From positions 183,311,445 to 183,375,444 of the forward strand of contig CM067369.1 of the NCBI GenBank assembly GCA_034401795.1: 64,000 bases of DNA. Reading direction: 5' to 3'. The translations under genes were made by a program, and so were the position numbers. Below, one piece after another: positions 47,671-59,884 of this stretch. Origin of the DNA: Chaetoderma sp. LZ-2023a. Its lineage: Eukaryota; Mollusca; Caudofoveata; Chaetodermatida; Chaetodermatidae. The notes below the pieces were generated by a model, which searched no databases, had not been told where the DNA came from, and saw only the letters and a program-made list of their open reading frames with translations. The number at the start of each line of letters is the position of its first letter. Positions within the stretch are counted from its first letter, which is position 1.

Positions 47671-47984
47671 TCATTTTTCATCATCATCATCATCAATTTA
47701 CAAGGCATAAGCCATTGGCTTGTTATTGCCTCAGTGCTAAACTGGTAGGGCAGGCAACCCTGGTCTGGATACAACACGTGTAGCTATCTTCATGTGTGCA
47801 TGTTCATGTAGATGCACAGGCTGTTTCAAGATTAGTCCACTGTGATGTAATAATTGTATTATGACTTTGGGAATTGACGGCTCACATAAGGTGTATAAGC
47901 ATATGTGTAACAGCAACGTCCAAAGCCACACCACAATTAATTGTGTTCAGCCGAATTCAAATATTCTTTCTTTGAAAAAGATGT

Positions 47985-48808
47985 CTAGTTTGCCTTGAAT
48001 ATTTCGACTGTGGTTGCTTCGACTATTGTTGTTGGCAGTGAATTCCAATGTGGTGCCACTCTATTTGCGAAGGAGTGCTTCCGAATAGCTTTGCTGCTAC
48101 GTTTTATGTTGAGCTTGAGCCTATGACCTCTGGTCCGTGTAACATTGGACAGTTCGAAAAAGTAGTTCTTGTCAATATTATATAGATCTTTGATGAGTTT
48201 GAATGTTTCAATCAAATCTCCACGAAACCGTCTATATTTCAGTGATATTAGATTTAGGGCTTCAAGTCTTTCTATGTAGCTATACTCTCTGATTTGTGGG
48301 ACAAGTTTTGTTGCTCTGCGTTGTACTCTTTCTAATAGCTGCGATTGCCTTTTCAGTCTTGGAGACCATGCTGAGTTGCAGTATTCAAGAATGGGTCGCA
48401 CAAGTGATTTGTATAGTAGCGTGAAAGTAGATTGATCAATGTTGGTAAATGTTCTCTTGATTAGTCCTATTGTACTGTTTGCCTTGGATACAATGTTCCC
48501 TATATGTATGTCAAAAGAGAGGTTTCTGTCGACATGAACCCCCAAATCTTTTTCTACATCTGATGTTGATACAGGATGTGGATCAGGTGTATCTGTCATA
48601 TAGTATTTGGTTTGAGGGTTATTTCTGCCGAAGTGCATGACATGCGTTTTGTCTGTGTTGAAAGATAGTTGCCATGTCTGCGACCATTTACATACTTTAT
48701 TTATGTTTTCCTGAATCTGACTGGTAGCTGGGTTGCCGTACATCTTTGTATCATCTGCAAATATTTTGCAGTGGCAGGTTAATCGATCAGGTAGGTCATT
48801 TATATATA
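47985..48808 (-). pseudogene. LINE ORF2 C-terminal part (RT motif FADD onward), copy 2
   Basis: It encodes NDLPDRLTCHCKIFADD, the catalytic Asp pair, then LGVHVDRNLSFDIHI and LVRPILEYCNSAWSP. Compared with copy 1 it lost one C near 47,993, so the last residues change and the frame stops early. Its upstream half lies beyond the Tc1 insertion. Confidence 0.85.
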
Positions 48809-50465
48809 CACCTGTGCAAAGGTTAAGCACCATCAAAAACAATAGAACGTAGAAACATGATGGTACAACTAGGCTGCCATACTTTTTGTCCCCGCGTTAG
48901 CTGACATAATTCCAAGTACGAAATGCACATGCATGCATGACTTCACGCCGCTTGATGTCCGTGCGTGGCGGGAAACAGCACACGTGTTCAGTTATGTAAA
49001 AGTCCAGTTTGAGGTGTAGAACATTACATACAGATTTAGGCGACAAGATTAGGAATTTTGTGTTCACGACCGTGGTTTATTTCTACAGAGAGAATTAGCT
49101 CTTGATTGTGAACCGCTATGGCAAGACGAAGGTTAAGTGATCGTGTGAAATGGCAAATCATAGGCATGCATACCACTGGTATGTCATGCAGAGAGATTGG
49201 CAGACAGCTGAACATTAACCATACTGTAATCAGTCGTTTGATTGCAAAACATGGGCAAACTAACGAGGTGTAGGACAGGCCTAGATCTGGAAGACCGAAG
49301 AAGACTACTGCCCGTGATGATCGAGCCCTAGTACGCCTTGTTAGGAGATCTCCATTCACCAACAGCAGAGTGCTCAGCCAGCAATGGGAAACGCGCAATA
49401 GAGTGTCAATGTCTACCGTCAAAAGGAGACTGTATGCTGCTGGCATGAAAGCTAGGAGACCTGTCAGACGTCCTCTCCTCACTGCACACCACAAAGAGGA
49501 GCGTCTGAGGTGGTGCAACGAAAGAAGACACTGGAACATGAGATCCTGGAGACGGGTACACTGGTCCAATGAAAGTCGGTTCCTGCTTCATGCCACAGAT
49601 GGTCGAACTCGTGTATGGAGGTCCAGACGCACGGCGTACGACCAACGTAACATCATGGAAGAAGTTCCATTTGGTGGAGGTTCCGTTATGATATGGGGGT
49701 GCATCTCATTTGATTGTAAGTTGGATCTGTTGACTGTACCTGGAACACTAAATGGACAAAGATATCAAGATTCCATACTGGATAGAGTTGTGGTCCCTCA
49801 TTTTGTAAATCATGCACCTGGAACCCACCCTATATTCATGGATGACAACGCCCGACCACATCGTGCTAGAGCTGTGCATGAATACCTCCGCCAGAATGCC
49901 ATCGAAACCCTACCATGGCCAGCAAGGAGCCCTGACATGAACCCTATTGAGCATATCTGGGACATTCTGGGAAACATGGTGAGAAGGAGGGATCCTCCTG
50001 TGCAGAACCTACAGGAATTAACAGACGCACTCCATCTTGAATGGCAACGAATACCACAATGGCGTATCAGTCGGTTGGTGACCAGCATGAGACGTCGTGT
50101 CCAGGCCGTCATCCAGGCACAAGGTGGATATACCCGGTATTAATAATGACAGTCTCAAACTCGTGCACAGATGTTAAACTTCGTTTTCAGACACCATTAA
50201 TGACAATCTAGCCACGTGTGTCAACTGTAGGGCAATAGTTGTCAGTTGTGTCAACGTAACCATATTCAGGCCTCGTTTTCAAGTTCAAACAAAAACATAC
50301 AGTGTTTCCCCACCATCATAATCAGCATTCCTCTAGTTGCATTATTACCTCTTGCACTAAGACGGATGGGTACATAAATGTTTATGCTATTGCTTTCTTC
50401 ATAGCACATGAATATACCCTCGCATGGGCGTAAAAATAGGGTGGTGCTTAACTTTTGCACAGGTG
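48809..50465 (+). mobile_element. Tc1-like transposon 1 (inactive), in LINE copy 2
   Basis: 1,657 bp with ends CACCTGTGCAAAGGTTAAGC and GCTTAACTTTTGCACAGGTG, inserted at TA within the LINE TATATATA run. Its left terminus has G where the other three copies have A. Confidence 0.9.
49118..50143 (+). pseudogene. Tc1-like transposase, dead copy (stop at codon 52, D151N)
   Basis: Aligned with the intact copies, codon 52 is TAG (49,271-49,273) instead of AAG, and the first catalytic Asp is AAT (Asn, 49,568-49,570). The second Asp and the Glu remain. Other differences include Phe for Val in EVPVGGG and Pro for Thr in LTVTGT. It cannot make an active enzyme. Confidence 0.9.
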
Positions 50466-57990: not shown

Positions 57991-58096
57991 TATATATATA
58001 TGTATATATATATATATATATATATATATATATATATATATATATATATATATATATATATATATATATATATATATATATATATATATATATATA
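57991..58096. repeat. (TA)n tract 3
   Basis: About 106 bases of TA, abutting Tc1-like transposon 4. Confidence 0.95.
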
Positions 58097-59753
58097 CACC
58101 TGTGCAAAAGTTAAGCACCAGCAAAAACAATAGAACGTAGAAACATGATGGTACAACTAGGCTGCCATACTTTTTGTCCCCGCGTTAGCTGACATAATTC
58201 CAAGTACGAAATGCACATGCATGCATGACTTCACGCCGCTTGATGTCCGTGCGTGGCGGGAAACAGCACACGTGTTCAGTTATGTAAAAGTCCAGTTTGA
58301 GGTGTAGAACATTACATACAGATTTAGGCGACAAGATTAGGAATTTTGTGTTCATGACCGTGGTTTATTAGTACAGAGAGAATTAGCTCTTGATTGTGAA
58401 CCGCTATGGCAAGACGAAGGTTAAGTGATCGTGTGAAATGGCAAATCATAGGCATGCATACCACTGGTATGTCATGCAGAGAGATTGGCAGACAGCTGAA
58501 CATTAACCATACTGTAATCAGTCGTTTGATTGCAAAACATGGGCAAACTAACGAGGTGAAGGACAGGCCTAGATCTGGAAGACCGAAGAAGACTACTGCC
58601 CGTGATGATCGAGCCCTAGTACGCCTTGTTAGGAGATCTCCATTCACCAACAGCAGAGTGCTCAGCCAGCAATGGGAAACGCGCAATAGAGTGTCAATGT
58701 CTACCGTCAAAAGGAGACTGTATGCCGCTGGCATGAAAGCTAGGAGACCTGTCAGACGTCCTCTCCTCACTGCACACCACAAAGAGGAGCGTCTGAGGTG
58801 GTGCAACGAAAGAAGACACTGGAACATGAGATCCTGGAGACGGGTACACTGGTCCGATGAAAGTCGGTTCCTGCTTCATGCCACAGATGGTCGAACTCGT
58901 GTATGGAGGTCCAGACGCACGGCGTACGACCAACGTAACATCATGGAAGAAGTTCCAGTTGGTGGAGGTTCCGTTATGATATGGGGGTGCATCTCATTTG
59001 ATTGTAAGCTGGATCTGTTGACTGTAACTGGAACACTAAATGGACAAAGATATCAAGATTCCATACTGGATAGAGTTGTGGTCCCTCATTTTGTAAATCT
59101 TGCACCTGGAACCCACCCTATATTCATGGATGACAACGCCCGACCACATCGTGCTAGAGCTGTGCATGAATACCTCCGCCAGAATGCCATCGAAACCCTA
59201 CCATGGCCAGCAAGGAGCCCTGACATGAACCCTATTGAGCATATCTGGGACATTCTGGGAAACATGGTGAGAAGGAGGGATCCTCCTGTGCAGAACCTAC
59301 AGGAATTAACAGACGCACTCCATCTTGAATGGCAACGAATACCACAATGGCGTATCAGTCGGTTGGTGACCAGCATGAGACGTCGTGTCCAGGCCGTCAT
59401 CCAGGCACAAGGTGGATATACCCGGTATTAATAATGACAGTCTCAAACTCGTGCACAGATGTTAAACTTCGTTTTCAGACACCATTAATGACAATCTAGC
59501 CACGTGTGTCAACTGTAGGGCAATAGTTGTCAGTTGTGTCAACGTAACCATATTCAGGCCTCGTTTTCAAGTTCAAACAAAAACATACAGTGTTTCCCCA
59601 CCATCATAATCAGCATTCTTCTAGTTGCATTATTACCTCTTGCACTAAGATGGATGGGTACATAAATGTTTATGCTATTGCTTTCTTCATAGCACATGAA
59701 TATACCCTCGCATGTGCGTAAAAATAGGGTGGTGCTTAACTTTTGCACAGGTG
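58097..59753 (+). mobile_element. Tc1-like transposon 4 (array end)
   Basis: 1,657 bp, bordered by (TA)n on both sides. This is the only copy not followed by LINE sequence, so it marks the array's right edge. Confidence 0.95.
58406..59431 (+). CDS. Tc1-like DD34E transposase, intact (third copy, H232L)
   Basis: 341 residues. It differs from the two other intact copies by Leu for His at residue 232 (codon at 59,099-59,101), 11 residues before the second catalytic Asp. All catalytic residues are kept, so it may still be functional. Confidence 0.95.
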   Translation: MARRRLSDRVKWQIIGMHTTGMSCREIGRQLNINHTVISRLIAKHGQTNEVKDRPRSGRPKKTTARDDRALVRLVRRSPFTNSRVLSQQWETRNRVSMSTVKRRLYAAGMKARRPVRRPLLTAHHKEERLRWCNERRHWNMRSWRRVHWSDESRFLLHATDGRTRVWRSRRTAYDQRNIMEEVPVGGGSVMIWGCISFDCKLDLLTVTGTLNGQRYQDSILDRVVVPHFVNLAPGTHPIFMDDNARPHRARAVHEYLRQNAIETLPWPARSPDMNPIEHIWDILGNMVRRRDPPVQNLQELTDALHLEWQRIPQWRISRLVTSMRRRVQAVIQAQGGYTRY

Positions 59754-59884
59754 TATATATATATATATATATATATATATATATATATATATATATATAT
59801 ATATATATATATATATATATATATTTATATTTATATATATATATATATATATATATATATATATATATATATATATATATATAT
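59754..59884. repeat. (TA)n tract 4
   Basis: About 130 bases of TA with TATTTATATTTATA interruptions near 59,822. Tyr/Ile repeat frames through it are not genes. Confidence 0.95.

Follow-up and report, generated by a model that had tools for sequence, protein, structure and literature searches.

The question raised by this locus is how four transposons of one family came to stand head to tail, with the same piece of a different mobile element between them. The locus lies in a 64,000-bp window (the whole stretch of DNA analysed, C11:183,311,445–183,375,444; positions below are counted from its first base) of the genome of the mollusc Chaetoderma sp. LZ-2023a, which is assembled as 2.44 Gb in 2,753 contigs. 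Between positions 47,678 and 59,884, four full-length Tc1-like elements (T1–T4) are found together with fragments of a long interspersed nuclear element (LINE) and (TA)n microsatellite tracts. We conclude that this array is very probably the product of unequal homologous recombination, i.e., non-allelic homologous recombination (NAHR), between two Tc1 elements inserted in the same direction.

All four Tc1 copies were found on the plus strand, each 1,657 bp long from one terminal inverted repeat (TIR) to the other: T1 at 48,809–50,465, T2 at 51,897–53,553, T3 at 54,999–56,655, and T4 at 58,097–59,753. The starts and the spacings of 3,088, 3,102, and 3,098 bp reported in the initial annotation were shown to be exact, and the commonest self-match offsets in the window were 3102, 3088, and 6190. 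The spacers between the copies measure 1,431, 1,445, and 1,441 bp. The first of them consists of a LINE fragment encoding part of a reverse transcriptase (50,466–51,771, minus strand; BLAST and RVT_1) followed by a short host flank and a 96-bp (TA)n tract (51,772–51,896, plus strand; the tract itself at 51,801–51,896 according to Tandem Repeats Finder, TRF), and the other two (53,554–54,998 and 56,656–58,096, both minus strand) contain the LINE fragment and flank again with TRF-predicted tracts of 110 and 106 bp, respectively. The LINE fragment plus the junction showed no differences across 1,335 compared positions in all three units, and the Tc1 spacings differ because the inner (TA)n tracts differ in length, as had been proposed. 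Identical stretches of more than 1.3 kb in the array units are not a matter of chance. The proposal that the segment was amplified as a unit thus stands; independent insertions do not account for the common inner breakpoints.

The two outer ends are organized differently. To the left of T1 lies the 3′ part of a 5′-truncated LINE (47,678–48,808, minus strand; BLAST), which occurs a single time in the array. T4, on the right, is followed directly by the terminal (TA)n sequence (59,754–59,884, plus strand; TRF) and by no LINE. This sequence is the right part of the tract hit by the T4 insertion and contains the variants TATTTATATTTATA, which are present in none of the three inner tracts. The structure is directly visible in the sequence: four Tc1 copies in direct orientation bound three LINE-junction-(TA)n spacers (n + 1), and the outer flanks are unduplicated and belong to two different insertion sites. 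The earlier description of a head-to-tail array of a composite Tc1-LINE-(TA)n unit was correct regarding the repeated unit, but not regarding its ends, as there are only three LINE-(TA)n spacers for four elements. NAHR between two direct elements is described as leaving an element at either end and another between the duplicated segments (PMC3744419).

T1 and T4 are best read as independent insertions into different sites, in the same direction and about 1.43 kb apart, because T1 is located inside the LINE and T4 inside a (TA)n tract. The array LINE to the left of T1 was shown to be 99.0% identical over 1,132 columns (BLAST) to a fuller LINE copy at 9,904–11,035 in the same window, and its RVT_1 end match was under the Pfam cut-off (26.7 versus 29.6 bits). 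The first LINE fragment to the right, the continuation of the LINE split by T1, showed 97.4% identity with positions 11,032–12,319, and the open reading frame (ORF) spanning it matched RVT_1 (E = 5.7e-23). The paralogue contains a TA run (11,032–11,035) exactly at the point matching the interruption, i.e., a paralogous empty site, and T1 is therefore regarded as an insertion into the LINE of the array. This LINE is 5′-truncated near 51,771. A flanking seven-base duplication (CATTTTT) is suggested by eye, and the 25–30-bp junction, likewise judged by eye, appears to be host DNA that separates the microsatellite from the truncated LINE at its 5′ end. As to the site of T4, 11 of 26 dispersed copies of the same Tc1 family were found to abut at least eight TA units on one or both sides, so insertion into (TA)n tracts is nothing unusual for the family. 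This set of dispersed copies consists of 30 loci minus the four array copies (L009, L010, L011, and L028), drawn from the 40 candidates with the best scores among 92 in a first look; L030 is a member of the direct pair described below.

The longer LINE copy itself extends over approximately 9,904–14,115 on the minus strand and contains endonuclease, reverse transcriptase (RVT_1), and GDSL-type ORFs. Its frame is interrupted close to the TA run at 11,032, and a relative (P0121, 965 aa) showed 99% identity over 95% of the query.

The Tc1 copies have TA on both sides, and the TIRs of T2 are perfect over 24 bp. The predicted transposase contains the domains HTH_Tnp_Tc3_2 (3.9e-17) and DDE_3 (3e-12), and a DD34E spacing was counted by eye on the translation. 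DD34E is the catalytic motif of the Tc1 family. The sole NCBIfam match of the transposase, IS630, was below the cut-off, and a search of viral contigs with the TIR pattern gave 0 matches. The closest species-named relatives, among 120 listed of 2,661 matches, were from the gastropods Littorina saxatilis and Batillaria attramentaria (60% identity). A 341-aa transposase frame starting with ATG is present in T2, T3, and T4, in T4 with the substitution H232L. T1 contains an in-frame stop at codon 52 as well as D151N, which by reading of the translation affects the first Asp of the DDE triad, and the claim that every unit carries an intact transposase thus had to be corrected to three of four. Neither the stop nor D151N was present in the related protein P0001 or in any of the 26 dispersed copies. 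P0001 is like T2–T4 at codons 52 and 151, like T1 at 185 and 208, and like T1–T3 at 232.

A comparison of the four array copies revealed 15 variable sites. Eleven of these, at positions 13–931, set T1 apart from T2, T3, and T4, which agree, and three (1004, 1523, and 1619) set T4 apart from the other three; T2 and T3 have no separating column in 1,657. The outer copies are of different lineages, here called A (T1) and B (T4), and the site pattern supports a hybrid nature of the inner ones. The T2–T4 alleles were present among the dispersed copies in 2 of 26 (274), 7 of 26 (862), 5 of 26 (931), and 11 of 26 (630), and those of T1 at 13, 25, 259, 275, 463, 760, 913, and 1555 (seven of them on the left) in none. 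The allele shared by T1–T3 at 1619 (G) was found in a single dispersed copy, and T4 carries the allele of the other 25. In a likelihood breakpoint scan made without the dispersed copies, the best placement of a switch within Tc1 was 931–1003. Switches at 913–930, 1004–1522, or 1555–1618 were 3.9 log units worse, one beyond 1619 (inner copies wholly B) was 7.2 log units worse, and a single-source model was 22.5 log units worse. Differences between T1 and T2 were found at 11 of 931 left positions versus 1 of the next 2,061 (right part of Tc1 plus LINE; Fisher p = 2e-5), within Tc1 alone at 11 of 931 versus 1 of 726 (p = 0.016), and a test of their order gave p = 0.009. On this pattern, the left part of T2 and T3 most likely derives from B and the right part from A, the arrangement to be expected after unequal exchange between A and B, with one discordant site (1555). 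The founding exchange is placed inside Tc1 because the outer copies differ in lineage and the inner ones look hybrid, and not in the (TA)n tracts, where one of the possible routes named in the initial annotation had put it.

The following series of events probably accounts for the array. A 5′-truncated LINE would have landed beside a (TA)n microsatellite, and a Tc1 element of lineage A would then have inserted at a TA within the LINE. A second element, of lineage B, would have entered the neighbouring (TA)n tract about 1.43 kb from A, with its orientation the same as that of A. Unequal crossing over, in which B on one chromatid paired with A on another, would give the product A-[LINE-TA]-(B/A hybrid)-[LINE-TA]-B, and the second hybrid unit may have been gained through another round of unequal exchange or through a larger slip. 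We infer both the order of the insertions and a crossover between chromatids rather than a homologous circle.

A second array of the same Tc1 family was found at C14:162,867,730–162,879,060 on the minus strand (L039, L041, and L042), consisting of six Tc1 copies (U1–U6) and five spacers of 276–283 bp. Its target sites differ between its two ends, and it has the same n + 1 geometry as the first array. The spacers are not the LINE of the first array, and the longest listed matches to the window are Tc1. The 341-aa frame is present in five of the six copies. Alleles at 383, 1177, and 1341 are common to U1–U5 and absent from U6 and from all 26 dispersed copies. Besides, U1 and U4 share a private allele at 1093, and U2 and U5 have three such alleles in common (1304, 1394, and a deletion at 1503) as well as the spacer type of 276 bp. 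Self-matching gave 99.8% identity at a three-unit shift versus 99.1% at one or two, and as judged from these sequence comparisons the second array has a three-unit higher-order pattern. A cluster of alleles at 61–69 is common to U3 and U6 but absent from U1, U2, U4, and U5. U3 is a mosaic, U6-like at 61–69 and 476–719 and U1-like at 383, and a hybrid inner element is clear for U3 only in part.

A direct Tc1 pair that had not expanded was found at C14:168,783,724 onwards (L040). It has a single spacer of 1,382 bp, a long (TA)n tract surrounds its first copy, and no third Tc1 copy was present within the 8,001 bases examined. Among the 26 dispersed loci (flanks of about 1.5 kb), no other contained a second direct Tc1 start. 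At another locus (L033, C5:14208733–14208771), a Tc1 copy adjoins a 39-bp inverted Tc1 piece (positions 41–79).

Several points tell against NAHR between two founders as set out here. Site 1555, which sets T1 apart, is an exception to the left/right pattern and has to be ascribed either to conversion or to a change that arose later in T1 (CG/TG context). At 1004 and 1523, T4 has alleles present in 0 and 1 of 26 dispersed copies, respectively, and these could also have arisen later, in T4, so that 1619 is the only positive A marker on the right, and the hybrid right side depends on this one uncommon shared allele together with the scarcity of T1–T2 differences. The dispersed copies are best matches to T2 and not a random sample; such a bias would work against the 1619 allele of T2 looking rare. 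The statistical tests on the T1–T2 sites assume site independence. The number of inner units is uncertain, because T2 and T3 are identical and were counted from the assembly alone. In the second array, U2, U4, and U5 would have switched within the first 60 bp or been overwritten; a one-switch pattern is not valid for all its inner copies, and conversion or such an early switch must be assumed.

The explanation that survives best beside NAHR between chromatids is a circle route, which we consider unlikely. Recombination between A and B would excise a circle of LINE-TA and a B/A hybrid Tc1, perhaps multiplied by a rolling circle, which then reinserted by homology into A-X-B. The same B/A hybrids and the identity of T2 and T3 are expected from this route as well, and rolling-circle-like concatemers have been proposed for Bari1 arrays (PMC8834629). 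However, excision and reintegration are required on top of the same homologous exchange, and the (TA)n lengths vary between units, although such tracts can change fast.

An assembly artefact (false expansion, collapse, or concatenation of haplotypes) is somewhat less likely still. The identity of T2 and T3 over 1,657 bp and of the LINE parts over 1,335 positions could be explained in this way. On the other hand, the three inner (TA)n tracts are unequal, T1 and T4 are each distinct and positioned as recombination predicts, and a second array is present at another locus. A query with the LINE-junction-(TA)n unit matched only the three array copies among the 40 of 1,544 candidates that were scored, with no allele on another contig, and the left flank of the array had one place of 100% identity (40 of 6,246 candidates scored). 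An artefact confined to the count of inner units would be compatible with NAHR, which is why the probabilities attached to the explanations do not add up to one.

Multiplication of one Tc1 insertion by unequal exchange between (TA)n tracts is highly improbable and was rejected. Each Tc1 is flanked by TA runs and the tract lengths vary, as such an exchange would have it. However, all Tc1 copies would then descend from one insertion, which is the single-source model disfavoured by the scan and by the different lineages of the outer copies. Eleven of 931 positions on the left differ between T1 and T2, versus 0 of 1,335 between the units in the LINE plus junction, and an array end of LINE-(TA)n is expected where Tc1-(TA)n was found. 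Equally improbable, and also rejected, is alternative transposition of the reversed-ends or sister-chromatid type as in maize Ac: full-length transposase frames (21 of 26 dispersed and three of four array copies) and a unit start exactly at a Tc1 end fit with it, but Ac duplications are without the element at one breakpoint (PMC3744419), Tc1 is present here at both outer ends, and hybrids are not predicted.

The exact 24-base TIR pattern was found 11,446 times in forward and 11,510 times in reverse orientation genome-wide, compared to 0 and 0 for a reversed control. As each element has one TIR per strand, these counts, which also include shortened derivatives and copies in which one TIR is altered, point to a family of the order of 10,000 elements. 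For 11,478 randomly placed elements, chance alone would give about 38 direct neighbours within 1.4 kb, and close double insertions therefore need no special cause. The TIR numbers, the at least 99% identity of 40 scored copies to T2, and the transposase frames kept in the dispersed copies suggest a recent burst of the family. By eye, neither an array nor a gap of less than about 5 kb between neighbouring elements was seen in the 100 TIR places on C1 that were listed first (0.2–11.1 Mb; of about 23,000).

It is doubtful that this high-copy and still coding-competent Tc1 family, with its frequent insertion in TA-rich sites, recurrently founds composite arrays through transposase-made breaks at Tc1 ends that are repaired from a mispaired neighbour. 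If true, the family would be a recurrent generator of composite satellites, with units carrying any DNA that happens to lie between two insertions. The initial annotation had considered the array a possible expanding satellite. Regarding the unit itself this is not borne out, as the search for further arrays with the same LINE-junction-(TA)n found this locus only among the scored candidates (40 of 1,544), and three units fall short of the long arrays at large or many loci that constitute satellite DNA. What remains of it is that the Tc1 family founded a second array.

Other features of the window lie outside the array. The sequence to its left (46900–47640) is a dispersed repeat with 39 further places of 87–92% identity (40 of 6,246 candidates scored). 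A GC-rich region at 24001–28602 (58%, then 49%), which includes the RVT_1 ORF 26,225–26,692, is probably another retroelement, and an exon-like ORF at 33719–34258 with a Tim29 match (5.7e-50) belongs to a host gene. A 30-bp repeat of 12.3 copies with 100% match (18050–18417) is located within a diverged minisatellite at 17.3–18.4 kb, and a 131-bp exact tandem duplication was detected at 20431–20692.

The birth of transposon arrays is often masked by later homogenization. In the present case, both founders are preserved, as are the outer flanks, the apparently hybrid inner copies, and a paralogue of one of the empty sites. Together with the second array and the unexpanded pair, the steps from pair to hybrid to array become directly comparable within one genome, and copy-number polymorphism is predicted by these steps.

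This array was not found in titles or abstract openings of the searched literature, which omits most subscription journals. McGurk and Barbash in 2018 reportedly described double transposon insertion followed by unequal exchange. That work is cited for this in PMC9659126 and PMC12628747, and according to the latter the mechanisms it describes include one in which a single target site is hit repeatedly. The likeness is that nearby copies in the same orientation seed a tandem array growing by unequal exchange; the difference is that two different target sites were used here and that the unit carries about 1.43 kb of LINE and microsatellite.

Bari1 arrays are not known to contain spacer DNA. In Drosophila melanogaster, this Tc1-like element forms head-to-tail arrays of about 80 copies in h39 and six on the X chromosome, each array copy being without its first two nucleotides, and a circular intermediate was proposed (PMC8834629). 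The present array is similar in having Tc1-like elements head to tail at a single locus, but its TIRs are complete, TAs surround each copy, and spacers of 1,431, 1,445, and 1,441 bp are present, for which reasons a Bari1-type array of Tc1 alone was rejected. Tandem long terminal repeat (LTR) retrotransposon arrays of plants are likewise multimers of mobile elements; they share LTRs, and a single insertion was inferred by the authors (PMC11899658), whereas TIR elements and recombination of two insertions are involved here. The reversed-ends duplications of maize Ac resemble the array as tandem direct duplications with a class II element at a boundary, but they are without an element at one breakpoint and no hybrid is predicted (PMC3744419). 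NAHR among copies and transposon-derived satellites of oysters are covered within this literature (PMC9659126, PMC12628747, PMC8834629, PMC3744419, PMC11899658, and PMC11136912). The kind of event is thus known, and the Chaetoderma array is a new and unusually well-preserved member with clean traces of its birth.

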